Notes under the pieces: generated by a model
The model's input: only the letters and a program-made list of their open reading frames with translations
Databases searched by the model: none
Told to the model about the DNA's origin: nothing
Shown here: positions 933-61,262 of the stretch, piece after piece
How the letters are laid out: the number at the start of each line of letters is the position of its first letter
Numbering within the stretch: the first letter of the stretch is position 1
Program-made: the position numbers and the translations under genes
NCBI RefSeq assembly: GCF_963678975.1
Contig: NC_089272.1
Span: 57,420,713-57,484,712 of the forward strand
Source: Dysidea avara
Taxonomy: Eukaryota; Porifera; Demospongiae; Dictyoceratida; Dysideidae
Direction of reading: 5' to 3'
DNA: 64,000 bases

Positions 933-2222
933 TGTATGTATGTATGTATGTATGTATGTATGTATGTATGTATGTATGTATGTATGTATGTATGTATGTA
1001 TGTATGTATGTATGTATGTATGTATGTATGTATGTATGTATGTATGTATGTATGTATGTATGTATGTATGTATGTATGTATGTATGTATGTATGTATGTA
1101 TGTATGTATGTATGTATGTATGTATGTATGTATGTATGTATGTATGTATGTATGTATGTATGTATGTATGTATGTATGTATGTATGTATGTATGTATGTA
1201 TGTATGTATGTATGTATGTATGTATGTATGTATGTATGTATGTATGTATGTATGTATGTATGTATGTATGTATGTATGTATGTATGTATGTATGTATGTA
1301 TGTATGTATGTATGTATGTATGTATGTATGTATGTATGTATGTATGTATGTATGTATGTATGTATGTATGTATGTATGTATGTATGTATGTATGTATGTA
1401 TGTATGTATGTATGTATGTATGTATGTATGTATGTATGTATGTATGTATGTATGTATGTATGTATGTATGTATGTATGTATGTATGTATGTATGTATGTA
1501 TGTATGTATGTATGTATGTATGTATGTATGTATGTATGTATGTATGTATGTATGTATGTATGTATGTATGTATGTATGTATGTATGTATGTATGTATGTA
1601 TGTATGTATGTATGTATGTATGTATGTATGTATGTATGTATGTATGTATGTATGTATGTATGTATGTATGTATGTATGTATGTATGTATGTATGTATGTA
1701 TGTATGTATGTATGTATGTATGTATGTATGTATGTATGTATGTATGTATGTATGTATGTATGTATGTATGTATGTATGTATGTATGTATGTATGTATGTA
1801 TGTATGTATGTATGTATGTATGTATGTATGTATGTATGTATGTATGTATGTATGTATGTATGTATGTATGTATGTATGTATGTATGTATGTATGTATGTA
1901 TGTATGTATGTATGTATGTATGTATGTATGTATGTATGTATGTATGTATGTATGTATGTATGTATGTATGTATGTATGTATGTATGTATGTATGTATGTA
2001 TGTATGTATGTATGTATGTATGTATGTATGTATGTATGTATGTATGTATGTATGTATGTATGTATGTATGTATGTATGTATGTATGTATGTATGTATGTA
2101 TGTATGTATGTATGTATGTATGTATGTATGTATGTATGTATGTATGTATGTATGTATGTATGTATGTATGTATGTATGTATGTATGTATGTATGTATGTA
2201 TGTATGTATGTATGTATGTATG

Positions 2223-2252
<30 letters not shown>
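933..2252. repeat. perfect TGTA tetranucleotide microsatellite, 330 units
   Basis: The tetranucleotide TGTA runs for 1,320 bp without one visible interruption. Long open frames on both strands across it (Met-Tyr-Val-Cys or Ile-His-Thr-Tyr repeats) follow from the period-4 repeat having no stop codon and are not genes. It lies between the FAR1-like exon and a MITE, probably inside an intron. A perfect array of this length may be a recent expansion, or its length may be inexact in the assembly. Confidence 0.97.
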
Positions 2253-2253
<1 letters not shown>

Positions 2254-2304
2254 TGTATATTTGTGCTGTGTATGTGCACGTGTGTCTGCACAGTATTTAG
2301 ATTA

Positions 2305-2699
2305 GAGCTGAGCGATAGTACAACTATCACTATCACGATTGATGGTAACTTTTATATCACGATAACGATAGTATCACGATAGTACTAGCAGTTATCAAAG
2401 ACACTTAACCTCATGTAAATAGCACATAAATAATCCAATTACATACCACGTATCTGCTTTTTTAACACTTGTTTGGTAAACATTGTGACATATTACAATT
2501 GTAATTTTTGTTGTGCATCATCAACTAGACTTGCACAGTTTCCTCAACTTCAATGCTATCATGTTTGCTTCTGTTATCCATGGTTTTTGACTAAGCACAG
2601 GCGTGTTTAATATATCGCGATAGTACGATTGTAGACTATCATATCATGATTGTTACTCACTATCATGATAAGCGATAGATCGCAACTATTGCTCAGCTC
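2305..2699. mobile_element. TA-flanked MITE with GAGCTGAGCGATAGT TIR
   Basis: The left end GAGCTGAGCGATAGT pairs with ACTATTGCTCAGCTC at the right end (one mismatch). Both sides are flanked by TA, as for Tc1/mariner-type insertions. The interior has many short self-complementary GATAGT/ACTATC blocks and no coding capacity. Confidence 0.8.
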
Positions 2700-2701
2700 T
2701 A

Positions 2702-3171
2702 GTTTAAATGTGTGCCTGATATATATTAATGCAACAAATTCCAACTGTTCATGTGTTTGGTGAGATCTAGGGTTTTGTCACGGAAAAAACAATCCAATTG
2801 GATTATTTTATGGTAGCCATATTTGGTCAGCCCTGCGGTCATTCCCAATTTTTAAACTGATCTTGCATGAATTTTAATTAGCTTGCCTCTGTGGTTGCTA
2901 CACTCAATGCAAGACCTAGTAGTGCTGGGTAGTGTTGCACCGATAATCGGTTCAATAATCAGTATCGGCCTATGTTAGCTACTAGCTGATTAATCAGAAT
3001 CAAAGCCGATATTAATCTCCACTGTGCTGTGTAATATAATGATGTGGGGAAGGCTGGACATAAGTTATTTGGCATTTTAATTAAGTTATGTGTTGATGGT
3101 TTAGTAGTGACTACAAACCATGCCTATAATAAACTGTCAGGATCTGACTGACTTTAGCAGTTACCAGAATA
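2702..3171. other. intergenic or intronic DNA with a TIR-element fragment
   Basis: Around 2934-3025 there is a fragment beginning GTGTTGCACCGATAATCGGT, which recurs at 31847 and, degraded, near 40222. It looks like the end of a dispersed MITE. The rest shows no gene. Confidence 0.5.
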
Positions 3172-3720
3172 TGTGACTGGATATGGGAAAACCGGTCTTA
3201 TTGCCCATGACAGCAGATTTGATGTTCACCAAACTATCAAATTGCACCGTCAAAATCAGCTAGACTTGAGTGGTCCAGCTGCTTTTCCCAAGCACAGTGG
3301 TGATCCGTACGTGTGGTCTAGGGCCTTAATGGAGCTCTGGTCAGCATGGGGATGGTTGTATGTGGCTGTACAGCTCCGTGGTGTTGAATAAAGACCTGTG
3401 CTGTAAGTTTCCTTTCATTTTGAGACCCGGATGGCCCATAACTTGGCCTATTCATCTCTATGCCTTCTTCTTTAATATTTCTAAACAACATCTTGCCCTC
3501 CTATGGGTCCCTGCCTCCCACTCCTTTGGGGCTCATCTAATATAGGTTTAAAAACTAAGCTGTTTGCTACTTGTACAGTGGATGTTCTGGAAGGTAAGGT
3601 GTTTGTGTAAAATGTGTGAAAATTTGGTACACCTGACTTCAACTATTGGTGAGCTACAACACTCTAAATACTTTAATCTGGCATTTCTCGATACTTTTAA
3701 ATAGGCGATAAGACCGGTTA
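3172..3720. mobile_element. TGTGAC-family element, degraded copy
   Basis: The left end TGTGACTGGATATGGGAAAA leads into ACCGGTCTTATTGCCC, and the sequence runs closely parallel to the complete copy at 18736-19375. The right end stops inside the TIR at ATAAGACCGGTTATA, so the terminal GGGTCACA is lost. No coding capacity. A short ATT microsatellite follows at about 3837. Confidence 0.7.
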
Positions 3721-4086
3721 TAATGCTTTTATCCACCTATTGGAGCACCTGCTTTATGAAGCAAATCTAGTACTGTATAGTAGGAAAGTTTTGTAGAAAG
3801 AAACCATAGTAAATAAACTGCAATTTACATACAGTATTTATTATTATTATTATTGGATGAAGATGTGGCAGATTTAAGTTGCAAAATGTTGTTTGTTTAC
3901 CAAACACTCCATGGCTCCTATCAAACATTGAATTAGGCCATTGAATTATGAGAATTATTTTTGCTATATACAAAAGCAGAATCGTTTTGTCATCCTTGCT
4001 ATCCTACAAGTTGAGAAATGTTAGTTCCACAAGTGTTTCAGTATGTTATCAATTGCATACCAAATCCATAATATGAAAAGTAACTA

Positions 4087-4899
4087 CCGTAGATTCCCTA
4101 AAATTTCGGCATCTCTAAATATTCGGCACTCCCCGTGCTTTGAACGCAATGTGCTCTAATTTTCGGCAAGCGCAGGAAAGTTTCTAATAATAAGCGTGCT
4201 AATTTTTCGGCACTTGGAGTACTAGTTGACGAAGGTCTCTTGAGTACTGAGGATTCCCAGTGATCTCACACAATATGCTACCTCGATGCTGGATGAAGCA
4301 CCAAGTGTGAAATTGTTCAGGGAACGTACCCAACGATATCATCATGTGACATCACGCCGGCTTAGTACCGCAAAACGATCTTCGTTTCATAACTCTCCTG
4401 GCCCCACATCTCCTTGTAACATGATACATCCTCAGATAACGCTTTTTAAAGCCTTGGAACACTTCATGCAGCATCTGGTAGCGAGATTTATTGCGAGATA
4501 GTTTAATAATATTAGCTATTGATTGCGGTTTATATTTTTTATTACTTGTTGAAATCCTTAATATTACACCTGGGTGATTGTATTCAAAAGTGATGTAATA
4601 AATTGACCATCTCTCCTGGATAATGTAGGCAATCATAGTATATAGCGCTGCGGCCAAGTGAGTGTTGTGGTATCGTCAGTACCGCCTCAAGGCGTTCCTA
4701 TTGGTCCCTGCAGAAATAAATCCAGAAAGTAAGCAGTAAACGGATCGCAAATAACATAGCCATGAAGCGTGCAGACTGTATTAGGAATAGATCCCTAAAA
4801 ATTCGACAATAGCACCGAATTGGTACATTTTTTCCTAATTGTTCGGCCAGACACGAACGGAATTAATTTATTTCTGCCGAATTTTTAGGGAATCTACAG
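4087..4899. mobile_element. TA-flanked MITE with GTAGATTCCCTAAAA TIR
   Basis: The left end CCGTAGATTCCCTAAAATTT pairs with the right end around GGGAATCTACAG. Flanking TA on both sides suggests a Tc1/mariner-like or other TA-targeting element. The inner arms repeat TTCGGCA-type motifs. About 813 bp, non-coding. Confidence 0.75.
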
Positions 4900-5309
4900 T
4901 ATTCTACAATGAATAAACACTGTGTCAATACCTTACGCAACAGGCTTTTTTAAAAAGCACTTATGAATTTGCCGAATTGAATTTGTCTGTGCATGATATC
5001 CCTGGACTTGTCCATTCATCATATTAAACGTTGCCTCCCAGAGTTGAATTTTTCTGGCTTGTGTTTATAAAATACAGCCAGTGGATATATCAGCCACCCA
5101 CCAAAGAGTATTAGTCTGCTAGGGGAATGGCACACATCAGTTGTATCATGGGGTTTAGTGGTTAACCTAATATGTATACCTAATTATGATGGCCACATTC
5201 TGTATTATGTAGTATGATTTTATTGGAGCAGTAATAGAATAATACTTATGTAGTATTGGTAGTGTATTTGATAGGTGTTATATACATTTTCCTATATTTT
5301 CCCATATAG

Positions 5310-25639: not shown

Positions 25640-26660
25640 TTTACCACAGGAAGAAGAAAAGATGAAGCAGGGTGATTTCTTTGTAGCTGAACTGTCTACA
25701 AGGTGATCCTTCTAGCTGATCTCTCTACCGGATGACTTGTTTGTAGCTGAACTCTCTACAGGGTGATTTGTTTGTAGCTGAACTCTCTACAAGGTAACTT
25801 CTTCTAGCTGATCTTTCTACAGGACGATTTGTTTGTAGCTGAATTCTCTACAGGGTGATTTGTTTGCAGCTGAACTTTCTACATGGTAGTTTCTTTGTAG
25901 CTGAACTCTCTACAATGTAACTTCTTATAGCTGAACTCTCTACAGGGTGACTTGTTTCTAGTTGATCTCTCTACAGGGTGACTTGTTTCTAGCTGAACTC
26001 TCTACAGGTGATTTGTTTGCAGCTGAACTCTCTTACATGGTGGTGTCTTTGTAGCTGAACTCTCTACAAGGTGACTTCTTCTAGCTGATCTCTCTACAGG
26101 ATGACTTGTTTCACTGTACCATTACATATCCTTGAAGACAGTAATCGAAAGTCTTTCCGGCATCACCTTTATAATTACTTATGTGTCAAGGAACTTCTTA
26201 ATCACTGTTTTGTGTTTTGTTGTGTACTTTTTAGTTTGTAGTGTACTGCAGGTATATGTATATGTATGTTTGTTTTTGTAGGCGGACACCTTGTACAGGC
26301 TTTGCCTTTTGTGTATGCCTTTCTTTTTGGTAAATTGATAATAATAACTGAACTCTCTACAGGGTGATCTGTTCATAGCGGAACTTTCTACTGGGTGATT
26401 TGTTTGCAGCTGAACTCTCTACACGATGGTTTCTTTGTAAGTGAACTCTCTACAAGGTAACTTCTTCCAGCTGATCTCTCTACAGGGAAATTTGTTTGTA
26501 GCTGAATTCTCTACAGGGTGATTTGTTTGCAGCTGAACTCTCTACATGATGGTTTCTTTGTAACTGAACTCTCTATTAAGTACCTTCTTCTAGCTGATCT
26601 GACTACAGGGTGACTTGTTTGTAGCTGAATTCCCTACAGAATAACTTGTAATGTAATATA
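25640..26660. repeat. minisatellite array, about 31-bp unit
   Basis: Units of the form AGCTGAACTCTCTACAGGGT plus GATTTGTTTGT are repeated in tandem with substitutions. It is the reverse complement of the array at 54640-57600. Interrupted by a non-homologous insert at 26112-26347. A two-unit remnant is also present at about 30420-30465. Confidence 0.92.
26112..26347 (+). mobile_element. LINE-tail-like insert in the minisatellite
   Basis: About 236 bp unlike the flanking units, ending in AATTGATAATAATAA immediately before a minisatellite unit resumes. The AT-rich repeated tail suggests a 5'-truncated retrotransposon end. No TSD could be defined. Confidence 0.45.
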
Positions 26661-27696
26661 ATTGAGTAAATTATAAACGCAGCTGAATACTTTATTAGGG
26701 TGACTGTTCTATTAGAGTATCTCGATCTCGCATTTGCTACACGTAGTTGCCTTTCGAATCATAACTCAGCGGTTTGTAATCCGATTCTTCTGTACTACTG
26801 CAAGGACTTTCTATTATGATTATTCCAGCTAGATACTGATTTTCAGCTCGTTACTCTAAGCAGTTTGCCTGGTAGACACGAAAACTAATAGTTTTTTTCA
26901 TAAAAATCGATCGCGTAATTTTGACACAGGTTGGGTTTTGTGTCATATCTCCATGGTCTTTATCCCAATTCCTTTCAAACCACAAAAAGGCACTCCTACG
27001 ATGGTTGCTCCATCTACATATCAATTTTCAACTGATTCTTCCAAGGGGTTTACCCTGTAGGCGTGACAGACCTTCGGCCTTATTTTACGCAAATAATCGG
27101 TCATAACTCCGTGAATGTTCATCGGATCCCTATCAAAGTTGGTACGGAGATCCGCCTTAATGAGCCCTTCAAGTGTACCAAATTTCAGCCCAATCCGAGC
27201 ACGCATTCGTGTTTTATGGCGAATTTTGCAAAGTGTGCGAAATCAGTGGCGGTGTCACAGTGATATATGTTTCCCCGGGTAACGTGTTTCCCGCACACAT
27301 ATCCCTAGGGATCCGTGTTTCCCCGCACACATATCACTAACTCGCTAGCGACCTACAAGTCACAGTGATATGTGTTTCCCCGGGTAATATGTTTCCCCTT
27401 TAAAGTCATGTGCAACGTACGTAGTGTTAGCATAGGCGCGCATGCGCTTTTAATAATCATAGCTAGTCATTGCACTTACCTATACTACTAATACTATAAT
27501 TATACATGTTGATGGAGGAAATCAAGCCATTCACTGGCATTCAACTAGAACTGCTAAACTGTGCTGTGATTTGGCTATGTAGCTATATATAACATCAGTT
27601 TAATAAAACAGTAGCTACAAGTACATGTACACAATAAAAATACTATATCTCTAGCTATATAGAGTAAATCATGTGATTGCAGCTACGTATAACTAA

Positions 27697-29293
27697 TCAA
27701 TGTACAAATTGCTCAATATTATGCTTAGTCTTGTAGCATTCTACACAGAGAAATGTGCTCTTCTTTGCTTCAGCAATGGTGGTGTTTGCACAATGCGCGT
27801 GTGTCCAACATTTGCATTGGTCACATTTTATCTGTAGAAAAGAGTTGCAAAAGATCAAGCTGCATAATATATATTTACTTTATACATACCCAGTCACAGT
27901 AGTCAAGGTGGCTTAAGCTAATGTCTGAAGCGCCACACATCACACACCTTTCCTTCATATCCACTATAAGATTAAATAGTTATTCATCATGCATGCATGC
28001 ATGCAAGACTAATGCTGCAATTGCATACCTGAATGGGACAAAATTGTGATTGCAATGTCAATCCTTGCCTGCATAATGTCCATACTGCTGAGTTGTTCAG
28101 CAATCTACATAAAGAAAGTAATTGTTAATATATTCGTGTATATAGCTATACCATTAAGCTTTATACGTCTACCTTCAATGAAAAGACTCCACAGTTGAAA
28201 GGATCAAATTGTATCTTCTTGCTCAGTTCATGAACTTTAAACTTGTCTATACTAACATCATCAGAAATCATGAAATCGCCCCTTGTCTTGAAATATTTCC
28301 TGTGTGTATATATGCACATGTGCATAAAACCATAATCGTATGCCAAATTATTTGCATGCATAAACAATTACCCACTTTAATGTAGCAAAGGTACCACGTA
28401 AAGCACGGGATGGTCCAAATGGATCAAAGTAGTAAAAGTGCTTTGATTCCAGGTCAATAGCCTAACAGTGTGTACATCAATACCTAATGTGATTTTATTG
28501 CTTAATTAATTAGCTTACAATAAATATCCAATGATTACTATCTTGATTGTAACACCCAACCAGATATTTCTTCTGATGTAAACTTTCCTGTATAAGGTGA
28601 CATATCACGCATCTTCAACATTGCACACAGGAGTATACTTACCCTGGATAATAGATAAGATCTGTGGCATACAGCTGAGCAGTTTATTATTGTTTTCAGT
28701 GTCTGGCTGGGGATGACAAAACAATTGCCATGTATATCTGCTAACAGCCTCAGATATCCATTAATAATCTAAAGAAGTGTTATATGTATAACACAAACAA
28801 GACATTTACGTAACAGCGTGTGGTTCTGTAAATAGCTATACATACCTCATCATTTAAGTAACAATTCTGCTTCAGGATGTGAAAGTTCCCATGATGGATG
28901 GAGAAATGGTTTATTCTTGCTTTTATCGCATGGCATGGCTGCCCTTTCCAAATGCATTCAAGTTGCTTCTAAAAGATACACAACACAATATCTGTTTTGT
29001 ATTATATCATTATGTAATACATGTGGTTCTGAGCCTTCTTTATTTGTAATCAGTGTAAGATTACTCAATGGGCGAGTTGTCTTTTGGTCTGTTTTCTAAT
29101 ATATATAGAGAGACAGTAGATTATACAGTTCTGTAAAAAACATAATTATAGTGACACAAAAATACAGTGATTGTACATATACACATAAAGTACCAGCAAG
29201 GCTAACATATCCTTCATATGTACTAACCTGTATAGCTGCCTTTACTTTGGAAGTGGTTTTGGACTTTTCAACTTTCACTACATCTTGCTTTGC
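27697..29293 (-). CDS. Ulp1-like (C48) cysteine protease with C-terminal PHD finger, gene 1
   Basis: Assembled by hand on the minus strand. Exons, 5' to 3': 29293-29228, 28968-28846, 28768-28643, 28587-28519, 28461-28376, 28299-28173, 28104-28029, 27963-27890, 27831-27697. All introns are GT-AG and the phases join; the donor at 28376 is GTGGGT. The protein shows the Ulp1 landmarks in order: YLNDEIINGYLRLL; catalytic His in SNHWIFI; Asp in FYYFDPFGPS; the oxyanion Gln in KKIQFD; and the nucleophile in PFNCGVFSLK. A zinc finger follows (RCVMC, YCDW, KCDQCKCWTHAHC, FLCVEC), which is PHD-like, then a stop. Such proteases cut SUMO-like or similar modifiers, and PHD fingers commonly read histone tails. 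The N-terminus beyond 29293 is unresolved, so the copy may be incomplete. It lies wholly inside a TIR transposon. Confidence 0.78.
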
Positions 29294-29644
29294 CTATATA
29301 TTCACATTAATGCTAGCTATCACACATATAGTTGCACTAACTTTGCCTTAGTGAGCGAGTTGGTTATATACAGCTAGTCTATATAGCTCAAAATACAATA
29401 AACGTTATTATTTTTCTTTACTGGCTCATACATGCAGTCAGCGGCGGAAGAAGTAGTTGATATGAGGGGGGACTGGGCTGACCCATGCAGACTTATTTCT
29501 ATAGTTTGGTAAAGTGAGACCAAAAAAAAAAAAGGTCACAACCAACTGACAAGAGCTTTCCACCTCACCAGCTACCATTTCTAGCTGATAAACTACATCC
29601 ACCAGTAGTTACAAAACCCGTCTAGTAAAACTAAGGATCCTTCC

Positions 29645-30175
29645 TCTGATGTACTTGTTCGAGTTACAAGATATATTATTTGCAATCAAATCAATCAAGG
29701 TACAATCTAAACAGTTCAATATTCATGATCATATCAACTTCAGCTCAGCTAATACTAGATCCGGCACCAGCAACAAATTGATCATCCCTCATCATTTAAA
29801 TAACGTATCTAGACATTCTTATTTCCATAGATTACCAACTCTCTGGAATGCCATGCCTATCCTTAACTTGGATCTAACGTTTCCTCTGCTAAAATCAAAA
29901 CTAAAAACTTTTCTCTGGGATCATTTTATAACTAACTTTGAAGATAACAACAATTGCTCATTACACTATCTCTGTCCTTGCTCAAGATGCCACCAGTCAC
30001 GTCCACCCACCTCAAACCTGAACTACTTGTAGAATCTGTATGTATGTGTGTATATAAGTAAGTAAGTAGGTAAATAAGTAATGTAATGTAATGTACTTTC
30101 GCGGCTGTTGGTACATGTTACCAACAGACCTTTGGTGTGTTTACACCATAAAGCAATAATAATAATAATAATAAT
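29645..30175 (+). mobile_element. non-LTR retrotransposon 3' end inside element 1
   Basis: The frame 29649-30032 ends a retroelement polyprotein (FSSANTRSGTSNKLIIPHHL, SYFHRLPTLWNAMP, LLKSKLKTFLWDHF). A UTR with the hairpin GGTACATGTTACC and an AAT tail follow. It differs from the CR1/L2-like copies elsewhere in the window. A hairpin motif cluster lies just downstream at 30210-30242. Confidence 0.7.
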
Positions 30176-30836
30176 AATTACATAGCTCGCTACACACTGA
30201 CTACTTCATTAGAGTGACTGCTCTATTAGAGTATCTCGATCTTTATCACGGTTTTCAGCCCCACTCCAAGAAAGATAATTTCGGTGTGATATCATTCTGA
30301 GCCCCCCCCCCTTTCCGCCGCCTATGCGTGCAGTACACAGTCTCTTCTAAATTGACTGTCACAGTATGGCTGGCTAGTATAATGCTTATATAGTAGCTAT
30401 ATAGCTAGTTATATTATACAGGGTGATATTTTCGTAGCTGAACTCTCTACAGGGTGACTTGTTTCTAGCTAGCTAACTATATACATGTAATAAGCATGGG
30501 TGTCTATTAGCTAGATATAGCTATATATCTACTGAATGGTTGGATCGCGTACTCAGTGTTTGCAACTAGCCATAGGGCCTTGGAGTTACTGCACGTTGGC
30601 TATAACTTAGTGGGAAACACGGATCCCTGGTGATATATGTGCGGGGAAACACAAATCCCTATAGGGATATGTGTGCGGTGAAATATATTTTAAAAATCGC
30701 TACGGGAAACACATATCACTGACAGCTTTTGGTGGGAAACACGGATCCCTAGTGATATGTGTGCGGGGAAACACGGATCCCTAGGGATATGTGTGCGGGA
30801 AACACGTTACCCGGGGAAACATATATCACTGTGACA

Positions 30837-32933
30837 GCGGATCTAGAAATTTTCAGAGGGGGTTTCAGATTGCACTTAATTTCAGCCTACGTAGCTATAA
30901 GTCGAAGACCAAAAAAAAAAAGTCACAACCAGCTGTCGAAAGCCGTAATTGTGATCTCAAAGGCTAAGGTATGAAGTTTTTCGCCAGTAGATAGTCCTTC
31001 TATAACACACTATAGCTATATAACTCGTGGCGAATTTATGGACCAAAAGCAGACCCGACAAGTTGAAGGCGAGTTTGATATCCAGATGTCTGTACTGATC
31101 CGTGAACAACAGGGAAGTGCTTTGGGGGGGTTCTTGAACTCTGGAATGACGAGTAGGGAACTGAATGTGTGATGTATGTCTGTTTTGTGAGATTTCAGTC
31201 TATTTCCTGCCTCTGACAGACTGTTTTGTGGTCTGGTGCTTTCATTTACCATTCTCGTCCATTTTGTAGTCTATGTGTGATGTATGTCGGTTTTGTGAGA
31301 TTTCAGTCTATTTCCTGCCTCTGACAGGCTGTTTTGTGGTCATACATCACACATTCAGCTCCCTGCTCGTCTGTCCAGAGTGCAAGAACTCCCCAAAGCA
31401 CTTCCCTGTTGTTCACGGATCAGTACAGACGTCTGGGGTGGTTATACAGGCCGCCAGAGAATGGTCCACCAAAAGCAGACCCGACAAGTTGAAGGCGAGT
31501 TTGATATGGAAATTGTTAGCCTGATAGTGCAGCAACTTCATGCTGGTGTTATCTCACTTTTGCCTTTTGCGCCCATATGGTTGATTTTGCTAAATATGGT
31601 CACAAATATGGACATGTTGCATTGACACTTACGATACTTATATAGAAATGCACAGTAGTAAACTTATACTTGTATGCCATGTATGTAGCTCAAAATCACT
31701 GAAAATAAACATTTCGCATACTGCATTTAGCAAACTGATAGTGGAAGAGGCAGGGTCGGATTTAGGGAGGGGCCCCCTTTCCTTTCTAAGTTAGTACTTG
31801 GCCAATAAAACCTTAAATCTTCTATGTGTATCAAAAGTAGTGTTGCACCGATAATCGGTTGAAGTATCGGTAACAACCGATATTAGCTAATTTAATTTTA
31901 CAAGTATTTAAAAAAAAAAATTTTTTTTTAATTCCGGCCCTAATGGCACTCCCATCCTCCCCGATCTCTAGCTAGAAGTTAAACCTAATAAATGACAAAA
32001 AGCAGAAGAAAGAAAAAGCAGCTAAACCTACAGAGCCTACACAGGCCTACAAAAACACCGCATGGACCGCCAGCATACACACAGCAAAACCCCCGGACAG
32101 GGGCCTTAACAAGAAAGCCCTGCAGACTACTGACACTGCACAAAAAGTAAGATGTCCTGCTTGTGTCAGCATGTAGGAAATTTTTTTAATGATTTCCTTT
32201 AGAATTTCCTATTTGAGTTATCATGCAGGAAATGTTTTTGAACATTTTCTGTACAATTTCCTGTTATTGTCACATTGCAGTAAATTGTTTTAACATTTAC
32301 AAGAAATGTAGATAAAATCAGTATTAAGATTTTCACCACATTCATGACTAGTGCAAATGCAGCTGTAAACTGATCAAATGGATACTGCAGGTTTCTTATG
32401 CTTAGCTCAGTGTAATACTGAGCCAAAACTTGGTTCTCAACACAACATAGGCTTTCAACATCATATAACAGAGTGTCTCTACAACAATGTGTAACACTGT
32501 AACCCATATTATGCTGCTGCAATAACATTTTAGTGGTATATGAATTGTTATACTAAGGAAGCTCTATTTTACTTTTAAAATTAACTTTACGTTATGCCAG
32601 AATTGTATCTAAATTAACTACACCATATTTCTCAGTGACTTACCGTGCTACAGAAAAAAGAAGCTATGGCATACAGTGATGATACTCAACCATTTAGGGC
32701 TTTCAACATGACAATGTAAACAGTCAACACATGGAGCTAGATAGTTATGTACTGTATGCCAAGGTAAATATTACATGAATTTATGGCCTTAATTGTGTGT
32801 TGCACTTTGTTTCTTTGTACAATATGGATGTTAGAATTTGTCATGAATAGTGACAGACAGCTGGGGAGTATGGCGTTGTGACAAAGTGTTTATTTTAGTA
32901 AATATCTAGCGATGGCTTTACTTACTGTTTCAG
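30837..32933. repeat. repeat-rich region with a foldback at 31038-31500
   Basis: An inverted repeat pairs about 31075-31170 with 31342-31440 (AACAACAGGGAAGTGCTTTG against CAAAGCACTTCCCTGTTGTT). The spacer contains two direct copies of a segment of about 65 bp (TTTTGTGAGATTTCAGTCTA...). GACCAAAAGCAGACCCGACA occurs at 31038, and a near copy flanks the far side at about 31467. A MITE-end fragment (GTGTTGCACCGATAATCGGT) occurs at 31847. No accepted gene. Confidence 0.65.
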
Positions 32934-54639: not shown

Positions 54640-57600
54640 ATTCTGTAGGGAGTTCAGCTGCAAAAAGTTAATCTTATAGACAGTTCAGCAAGAAGACAGT
54701 CACCATGTGGAGAGTTAAGCAAATATACCACTATAGAGATTCAGAACATTACAAGTCACACTGAAGAAAGTTCAGCTATAAACAAGTCATGCACTGTGTA
54801 GAGAATTCAGCTACAATTAAGTCACTCTCTAGAGAATTCAGTTACACAGAATTCTGCTACACACAAGTCACTGTGGAGAGAGTTCAGCTACAAACAAATT
54901 ACCCTTTAGAGTGATCAGCTACAAACAAAACACTTTGCAGGGTGTTCAACTGCAACAAATCAATTACCTTTAGAGCGATCAGCAATGAACAAATCAACAC
55001 AAATCTACCTGTAGAGAGATCAGCTAGAAACAAACCACCCTGAAGAGAGTTCAGCTACAAAAAATCACCCTATAGAGACATCAGCTAGAAACTAGACACA
55101 ATGTAAGGAGTTCAGCTACAAGCAATCACCCTGTAGAGTTCAGCTAAAACAAATCAACCTGCAGAGAGATCAGCTACAAACAAATCACCTTATAGAGAGT
55201 TCAGCTACAAACAGATTACCTGTAGAGAGATCGGCTACAAATTAATCAACCTGCAGAGAGATCAGCTACACACAAATCAACTTGTAGAGAGATCAGCTAC
55301 AAACAAATCACCCTGTAGAGAGATCAGCTAGAAACTAGATACAATGCAAGGAGTTCAGCTACAAGCAAAATCACCCTTTAGTGAGTTCAGCTACAAACAA
55401 ATCAACCTGCAGTGAGATCACCCACAAAAACGCACTTGTACAGAGTTCAGTTACAAACAAATCACCCTGTAGAGAGTTCATCTACAAACAAATCAACCTG
55501 TAGAGCAATCAGCTAGAAATAAATCACCCTGAAGAGAGGTCAGCTACAAAAAATCACCCTGTAGAGAGATCAGCTACAAACAAATCACCCTGAAGAGAGG
55601 TCAGCTACAAAAAAATCACCCTGTAGAGAGATCAGCTACAAACAAATTGCCCTGTAGAGATATCGGCTACAAACAAATCAACCTGCAGAGAGATCAGCTA
55701 CACACAAATCAACTTGGAGAGAGTTCAGCTACAAACAAATTACCCTGTAGAGAGATCGGCTACAAACAAATCAGCCTGTAGAGAGTTCAGCTAAAACAAA
55801 TCAACCTGCAGAGAGATCAACTACAAACAAATCACGTTATAGAGAGTTCAGCTACAAACAAATTACCCTATAGAGAGATCGGCTACAAACAAATCAACCT
55901 GCAGAGAGATCAGCTACACACAAATCAACTTGTAGAGAGATCAATTACAAACAAATCACCCTGTAGAGAGATCAGCTAGAAACTACACACAATGTAAGGA
56001 GTTCAGCTACAAATAAATCACCTTATAGAGAGTTCAGCTACAAACAAATCACTCTGTAGAGAGATCAGCTAGAAACTGGACACAATGTAAGGAGTTCAGC
56101 TACAAGCAAATCACCCTTTAGTGAGTTCAGCTACAAACAAATCAACCTGCAGTGAGATCACCTACAAAAAAGCACCTTGTACAGAGTTCAGCTACAAACA
56201 AATTACCCTGTAGAGAGATCGGCTACAAACAAATCAACCAGTAAAAAGATCAGCTACACACAAATCAACTTGTAGAGAGATCAGCTACAAACAAATCACC
56301 CTGTAGAGAGATCAGCTAGAAACTAGTCACAATGTAAGGAGTTCAGCTACAAGTAAATCACCCTGTAGAGAGTTCAGCTAAAACAAATCAACCTGCAGAG
56401 AGATCAGCTACAAATAAATCACTTTATAGACAGTTCAGCTACAAACAAATTACCTTGTAGAGAGATCGGCTGCAAATTAATCAACCTGCAGAGAGATCAG
56501 CTACACACAAATCAACTTGTAGAGAGATCAGCTACAAACAAATCACCCTGTAGAGAGATCAGCTAGAAACTAGATACAATGCAAGGAGTTCAGCTACAAG
56601 CAAAATCACCCTTTAGTGAGTTCAGCTACAAACAAATCAACCTGCAGTGAGATCACCCACAAAAACGCACTTGTACAGAGTTCAGTTACAAACAAATCAC
56701 CCTGTAGAGAGATCAGGTAGAAGAATTCACCTTGTAGAGAGTTCATTTACAAAGAAACCATCATATAGAGAGTTCAGCTACAAAGAAATTACCCCGTAGA
56801 GAGTTCAGCTAGAAGAAGTCACCTTGTAAAGAGTTTAGCTACAAAGAAACCATCATGTACAGAGTTCAGCTACAAAGAAACCACCTGTACAGAATTCAAC
56901 TACAAACAAATCACCCTGTATAGAGATCAGCTAGAAGAAGTTACCTTGTAGATAGTTCAGCTACAACAATTCACCCTGTAGAAAGATCATGCTAGAAGAA
57001 GTCACCTTGTAGAGTGTTCAGTTACAAAGAAACCATCATGTAGAGAGTTCAGCTGCAAACAAATCACTCTGTAGAGAGTTCAGCTACAAAGAAACCGCCA
57101 TGTAGAGAGTTCAGCCTCATACAAACCACCTAGTAGAGAATTCAACTACAACAAATCACCCTGTAGAGAAGAAGTTACCTTGTAGAGAGTTCAGCTACAA
57201 AGAAACCACCATGTAGAGAGTTTAGCTGCAAACAATTCACCTGTAGAGAGTTCAGCTAGAAACAAATCACCCCGTAGAGAGATCAACTGGGCGAAGTCAC
57301 CTTGTAGAGAGTTCAGCTACAAAGAAACCATCATGTAGAGAGTTCAGCTGCAAACAAATCACCCTGCAGAGAGTTCAGCTACAAAAAAATCACCCTGTAG
57401 AGAGTTCAGCTAGACGAAGTCACCTTATAGAGAGTTCAGCTACAAAGAAACCATCATGTAGAGAGTTCGGCTATAAAGACACCACCATGTAGAGAGTTAA
57501 GCTGCAAACAAATCACCTGTTACAGAGAGTTCAGCTACAAAGAAACCATCCTGTATATAGTTCAGCTACATTTCAAGTCACCCAGTAGAGAGATCAGCTG
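54640..57600. repeat. 3-kb minisatellite with 31-bp unit and higher-order structure
   Basis: The unit is about TTCAGCTACAAACAAATCAC plus CCTGTAGAGAG, roughly 95 copies with variants (GATCAGCTAGAAACTAG..., GATCGGCTACAAAC...). A distinctive block (AACTAGATACAATGCAAGG to GCACTTGTACAGAG) occurs near 55330 and again near 56565, with a variant near 56070, showing duplication of multi-unit segments. CTACA and TGTAG within each unit can pair. Confidence 0.95.
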
Positions 57601-57814
57601 CAAAAAAAATCCTGTGGGGAATAATGAGCATGTAATAAATATATGTATATAATTTGTATAATTACTAATAAAATCAAAAATAATTGAAGTACTAAAATTC
57701 TTCTTTAAGTTCTTTTCTTCTTCCTGTGGTAAAGAAAAAAACACATGGGTTAAAAAAGCCCCAAAGCCAGCCATAGGCCGGCTTTGCAGTATACAAATAC
57801 AAAAAGAAGTGATA

Positions 57815-60130: not shown

Positions 60131-61076
60131 CTAAGTAGAAACACTATCTACTACGGTGGCCCGTTCCGGTCTATTTCCCGGAAATTTCTTTCAAATTTCC
60201 GAGAAATTTCTTCACTTTTTCTCATTTCTCAACAGTTTCTCTAAAGTTTCTCACCTTTTTCTCAATTTTTTCTCTATTCTTGAAACTTTCCCTAAAATTT
60301 CTTTAGTACTTCTCGATCTTTTCTCGTTTCTCAAAAATTTCCATAGAATTTCTTTGAGAAATAAGACGTCATGTGCACGTGATCAGTACTTCTCTAAAAT
60401 TTCTATAGAATTTCTTCGTGGCATACGACGTCATAATGCGTAATTAAGAGTTCTTACTGTACAACTTAAAAGTGCGCGTGGATATGGCGGGAAAAGATGA
60501 AGTTTCTTTTTTGTTCAAGTGCGTTAAGGAAGGCAAGATTACGGGAGACGAAGCCATCGATATCATTGGCAAGGGCAGATTACCAGCCACCACAGGAGCT
60601 ATTATGAGATATGGACCCAATCATAGTATCCAACCCCCTACACCAACTGCAAGTAAGCCAGCAACCGTTATCTTGTTACACATACTGAACGTAGTTCGAG
60701 CACGTGCATATTGACTTTAATGTATAAACCTGGCTTTGGTCTGTAGAGCTGTCTGGTTTTTTGTCAAAACAAAATGCTCTATATGCAGTGCTCATGAGCA
60801 GTGGTGTTTTAAAAGCAGGATCTTCTGCCTTGAGCTCTTATCAGAAAATATCTTTTTTGTTCATAACATTTTTATTGTAGCCAACTTGTATTTTTCCTTT
60901 TAATGCCTGCTTTAAGTATAATATGTAGCTAGTCGCATGAAAGTCTCCTGTCCAGACCGTATTGCCTTAACTTCTTGACATTATCAATTAGAGATTATAA
61001 GTACCCCCTCAGAAAAAGTTTTGTCGTCTGCCCACACCTTTTTGTTCGGCAACTTTTTGCATACAATTTGTTGTTA

Positions 61077-61262
61077 CCGCCAAGGCCTTAACCATATAAT
61101 CTTACCGCCAAGGTCTCAACCATATAATCTTACCGCCAAGGCCTTAACCATATAATCTTACCGCCAAGGTCTCAACCATATAATCTTACCGCCAAGGTCT
61201 CAACCATATAATCTTACCGCCAAGGTCTCAACCATATAATCTTACCGCCAAGGTCTCAACCT
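61077..61262. repeat. tandem repeat, about 28 bp x 7
   Basis: The unit CCGCCAAGGTCTCAACCATA plus TAATCTTA is repeated about seven times. The variants GGCCTTAACC and GGTCTCAACC mark two subtypes; the last four are all of the second type, suggesting recent amplification. Confidence 0.93.

Follow-up and report, generated by a model that had tools for sequence, protein, structure and literature searches.

Ginger1 DNA transposons, as originally described (Bao et al. 2010, PMC2836005), carry terminal inverted repeats (TIRs) of 40-270 bp with TGTNR ends, are flanked by a 4-bp target-site duplication (TSD) of the form CCGG or CCGT/ACGG, and encode a Gypsy-like integrase with a C-terminal OTU or Ulp1 domain and sometimes a PHD finger. 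The Ginger1 table of that paper gives 0-4 introns, and Ginger1-9_HM of Hydra is described in it as having Ulp1 and PHD, TIRs of 120 bp and 2 introns. The Branchiostoma Ginger1 transposase, on the other hand, is reported in the same paper to have no known C-terminal domain. A second paper likewise names a duplication of 4 bp as typical of Ginger1, and one of 4 or 5 bp for Ginger2 (PMC10045372). In plants, the ULP found in some transposable elements has been described as possibly transduplicated (PMC2528002). A literature search of partial coverage (titles and abstract openings) turned up no protease-only Ginger1, and it returned nothing apparently relevant on Ginger elements in sponge genomes. 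In this paper, we analyse a putative Ginger1 element, and its relatives in the same genome, in the sponge Dysidea avara.

The element stands in a stretch of 64,000 nucleotides (the window, in whose positions the coordinates in Table 1 are given). Its two inverted arms match at 87/87 bases, and GCGG is found on both flanks, exactly as a first-pass annotation made from the letters alone had stated. The end TGTCA fits the Ginger1 5' end TGTNR, and the TIR length falls inside the Ginger1 range of ~40-270 bp. The duplication GCGG is one base off the published CCGG type and has no counterpart among the published CCGG or CCGT/ACGG types; CCGC/GCGG is frequent in this sponge family (see below).

Table 1. 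Features of the element in the window.
Feature	Position	Strand	Remarks
Left target-site duplication	27249..27252	.	GCGG
Left terminal inverted repeat	27253..27339	+	87 bp, starts TGTCA
Subterminal direct repeat of TIR tip	27359..27397	+	92% over 39 bp
Exon J	27697..27831	-	stop codon and second half of PHD-like finger
Exon I	27890..27963	-	first half of PHD-like finger
Exon H	28029..28104	-	76 nt (109 nt in integrase-type copies)
Exon G	28173..28299	-	holds the catalytic Gln187, Cys193 and the first in-frame Met (codon 167)
Exon F	28376..28461	-	catalytic Asp141
Exon E	28519..28587	-	catalytic His124
Exon D	28643..28768	-	
Exon C	28846..28968	-	LNDE motif, aligns with SENP2
Exon A	29228..29293	-	in full-length copies comes after linker and integrase exons
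Deletion junction	29348..29350	.	integrase exons absent
MITE-like insertion	29440..30322	.	GGCGG/CCGCC ends; boundaries approximate
Nested insertion	29599..30177	+	(TAA)n tail; resembles a LINE by eye, nothing found by Pfam
Satellite-like piece	30411..30477	+	~65 bp (about two units) resembling 31-bp satellite unit, by eye
Right terminal inverted repeat	30750..30836	-	87 bp
Right target-site duplication	30837..30840	.	GCGG

On the minus strand, from 29293 down to 27697, nine exons join into a frame of 882 bp, i.e. 293 codons and a stop, with AG/GT at every internal splice site and continuous phases. The predicted protein scores 35.8 bits against Pfam Peptidase_C48 (cut-off 20.7) and matches SENP2 (1tgz) by phmmer over residues 43-205 (E 2.1e-5), with His124, Asp141, Gln187 and Cys193 each aligned to its SENP2 counterpart (H, D, Q, C). 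The C-terminal Ulp1/PHD arrangement of Ginger1 is found here, with a PHD part that stays under the Pfam cut-off (17.3 bits against 24) but resembles solved PHD fingers, the KDM5B PHD finger being matched at E 3.9e-4. The exon model, Pfam and phmmer therefore bear out the nine-exon gene with catalytic His, Asp, Gln and Cys and a PHD-like finger that had been proposed at first pass. The first Met of the frame is codon 167, i.e. after His124 and Asp141, and no start exon could be located for the window protease frame. The nine window exons belong to a longer predicted gene, of which they make up no more than the 3' part.

A search with window 28252-29349 returned 13 candidates, all of which were scored; they comprised 11 near-full protease copies and two weaker partial loci. 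A protease-only group consists of five copies (the window copy, L028, L029, L009 and L030), and an integrase-bearing group also consists of five (L011, L031, L032, L033 and L035), with an extra 2.9 kb that contains integrase exons and a length of ~5.4-7 kb (7.0 kb in L033, which has an insertion). In the latter group the same protease exons are preceded by a Gypsy-like integrase, the whole gene being modelled with 16 exons; exon H is 33 nt shorter in the protease-only copies than in the integrase-type ones. The 16 modelled exons of L031 run without a stop through 940 residues (exon H is shortened there by the alignment), and the protein exceeds the Pfam cut-offs for Integrase_H2C2 (56.9 bits), rve (48.0 bits) and Peptidase_C48 (26.0 bits), with no PHD reported by Pfam at E 0.01. 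Its integrase shows DD35E spacing; by eye, RWLGPYI represents the GPY/F motif in the full-length relatives, and SYPAGY...KLYY in L031, read without alignment to references, may be compared with the YPYY before the zinc finger of Ginger1. The other four integrase copies are disrupted, L011 in exon I4, L035 in I2, L032 in I4 and the protease, and L033 in the protease. The 5' boundary of the first modelled exon, I1, is provisional, as the AG present there in L011 is not conserved in L031, and no start could be located for the full-length gene. Among the best 150 of 1,494 candidates, the integrase core exon was matched at 97% or more in exactly five copies, followed by stop-bearing copies at 83-92% and then by matches at 43% and below. 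The stop-bearing relatives (C2:11514970, C9:29470554, C1:63457932, C3:20449636, C1:33343558 and C12:5638896) are presumably older. In a further locus, L034 (2296-5924), most integrase exons have been lost by a separate, independent deletion, and the protease exons are open. The first-pass annotation had suggested a transposon with Ginger-like ends whose integrase is supplied elsewhere, perhaps by a longer copy; a transposon with such ends is borne out, and so is the presence of an integrase elsewhere, in the five integrase-bearing copies of the same genome.

Compared with L011, the window copy lacks L011 element positions 2135-5060, ~2.9 kb of integrase exons, a segment which begins in the last codons of a linker exon and extends past the recognised integrase exons into the sequence upstream of them. 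The junction is identical in the window copy, L028, L029 and L009 when read side by side, and L030 was placed in the deleted group by its 98% identity rather than by a base-by-base reading of the junction. The window copy is without the integrase region, i.e. it encodes no integrase or transposase of its own, and hence is non-autonomous. The MITE-like piece has no match in L011, L031, L032, L034 and L035; L028 contains it but without the nested LINE-like fragment. Both pieces appear to have been taken up later than the loss of the integrase exons. The satellite-like piece also has no match at that place in L011 and L031-L035. Long arrays of a 31-bp satellite-like unit lie elsewhere in the window (54856-57608, 25668-26111 and 26346-26639), together with a TGTA tetranucleotide array of 1.3 kb (918-2258; 335 tandem copies, 99% match) and a 28-bp tandem repeat (61074-61261; 6.7 copies, 96%).

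In the genome searched (550.8 Mb), the left end of the element occurs with 108/108 identical bases at 40 loci or more, one of them the window, among the best 40 of 502 candidates. Twenty of the other 39 loci (L009-L028) and one more (L033) were inspected. At three of the 20 (L028, L009 and L011) the protease lies inside the end-matched element; the other 17 have only the end regions in common with the window element, except that L012 also contains pieces of a neighbouring copy and L025 short matches to the window element. Open reading frames, viewed for part of the loci, include reverse-transcriptase-like fragments by eye in L010, L019, L020, L026 and L028. Target sites were counted in 26 elements. 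The count takes in the further protease copies but neither L035, whose match stops short of the right end, nor L030, which shows no terminal motif in the sequence inspected. An exact 4-bp TSD was found in 23 of them, namely 13 CCGG, 9 CCGC/GCGG and 1 ACGC, and was missing in three (L009, L012 and L026). With a binomial probability of 1/256 each, target preference ignored, at least 22 of 26 would be expected at P = 1.5e-49; because 40 left ends are identical over 108 bases and 23/26 TSDs are exact, the ends and duplications are not due to chance. At L009 (2838-8001), two same-ended elements stand head to tail with the six bases CACCGG between them. As for empty sites, which had been proposed as a check at first pass, the outcome was divided. 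A paralogous empty site of L016 was found in L037 and L038 (98.5% over 200 bp) and at window 27056-27243 (96.3% over 188 bp). None was found for the window copy, since only the window itself reaches the insertion point among the best 40 of 2,907 left-flank candidates; its left flank is a high-copy repeat, and L038, compared by eye, diverges from the window sequence before that point.

We consider it highly likely (probability about 0.92) that the window holds a Ginger1 DNA transposon made non-autonomous by an internal deletion, with the protease exons as a passenger, a reading to which the ends, the duplications, the deletion, the integrase-bearing copies and the lack of detectable selection all point. 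The full-length relatives encode one intron-rich transposase, i.e. a Gypsy-like integrase followed by an Ulp1-type protease and then a PHD-like finger, and the integrase would insert into CCGG-like sites, making 4-bp duplications. In the window lineage, a single deletion removed the integrase exons and left both ends in place, and the short form, now at five loci, was presumably mobilised in trans by the integrase of the full-length copies, with the remaining nine exons as a putative passenger. The five copies of the deleted group indicate that the short form spread. The retained exons probably yield no active protease. The protease had been called the cargo of the transposon at first pass, a description that does not stand, as Ulp1 and PHD form a known C-terminal part of a Ginger1 transposase (PMC2836005); most likely it is a passenger and not the cargo of a new lifestyle.

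Another reading takes the protease-PHD-only form as a selected derivative whose product acts in trans on transposition, be it by regulating, repressing or helping it, so that the short form would be a true partner of the full-length element in a two-part system. It would be in keeping with the five copies of the deleted group, i.e. with spread after integrase loss, with the retention of all four catalytic residues in the window copy, and with nine exons being open in 3/5 protease-only copies. The remaining two, L009 and L030, are broken (exon A of L030 is additionally clipped by the end of the stretch analysed). The change of the catalytic His to Tyr in L009, and a first Met that comes only at codon 167, past His124 and Asp141, argue against it. 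So do the substitutions: within the protease-only group (n=5) 8 are synonymous and 24 nonsynonymous, giving dN/dS of 0.77-1.12 (P 0.32-0.68 vs neutral), where this range and those that follow reflect the assumed transition bias. The six integrase-type copies show 6 synonymous and 12 nonsynonymous changes (dN/dS 0.51-0.75, P 0.14-0.36), and the two groups differ from each other by 7 and 15, respectively (0.55-0.80, P 0.14-0.39). Furthermore, exons are no less diverged than introns in three intact pairs, and in one intact pair they are more diverged (13/879 vs 2/714, P 0.017, uncorrected). No purifying selection on the protease exons was detectable in either protease-only or integrase-type copies at this low power, and with 32 changes only, weak constraint on the short form may still act. 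We therefore hold a selected derivative to be very improbable, and give similarly small odds to the claim that the lineage spread thanks to a shortened protein working in trans, for example a helper with deSUMOylating activity or one that competes with the full transposase. Given the full-length copies and the outcome of the selection test, the protease-only lifestyle contemplated in the first-pass annotation is discarded as the principal explanation, the integrase exons having been lost by deletion.

The remaining alternatives concern the origin and class of the element. TSD length alone is compatible with several superfamilies with 4-bp duplications, such as Ginger2/TDD, Sola and Academ. The H2C2, rve and GPY/F integrase, the C-terminal Ulp1, the CCGG-type target and the long TIRs, however, match Ginger1, which makes another superfamily even less probable than a selected derivative. 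Least probable of all is that a MITE-like element captured a host SUMO-protease/PHD gene (Pack-type gene capture), although the exons do resemble an ordinary spliced gene and plant MULEs contain ULP domains that are discussed as transduplicated genes (PMC2528002). In five copies in this genome the protease exons are preceded by integrase exons within one and the same element, integrase and protease exons share one open frame in L031, and all of the 11 near-full copies found by the DNA-level search belong to this family (L030 and L035 without one or both matched ends). Host gene capture is rejected because the protease exons run on from the integrase exons.

The domains and ends of the family match the published anatomy of Ginger1, to which we assign it as a predicted member. 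Set beside the published description (Bao et al. 2010), the family is like Ginger1-9_HM in its long TIRs (87 bp, against 120 bp in Ginger1-9_HM) and its integrase with C-terminal Ulp1 and PHD, like published Ginger1 in its TGTNR ends and in the 4-bp CCGG duplications of 13 of the 26 elements, and like the non-autonomous Branchiostoma Ginger1 copies in that the ends are those of an autonomous copy. Unlike Ginger1-9_HM, with which it was compared by description, the window copy has no integrase, and the full-length relatives, about 5.6 kb long apart from the 7.0-kb L033 with its insertion, have 15 introns between modelled exons, where Ginger1-9_HM has 2 and the published table lists 0-4. The many CCGC/GCGG duplications also differ from those given for Ginger1, and the Ulp1 and PHD-like parts set the family apart from the Branchiostoma transposase as described in the same paper. 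A ULP1-type protease in a DNA transposon is shared with KAONASHI-MULE and the ULP-containing MULE/CACTA elements of plants (PMC2528002). Given complete relatives elsewhere in the same genome, the window element is essentially ordinary, and no new kind of element is revealed. The transposases and ends of the plant elements, KAONASHI-MULE and MULE/CACTA, are unrelated to those of this sponge family. What the locus adds is a Ginger1 family that looks young and is rich in introns, its full-length and deleted forms occurring together in one genome. They can serve as a natural series with which to ask whether transposition requires, in cis, the Ulp1-PHD portion of a Ginger1 transposase.
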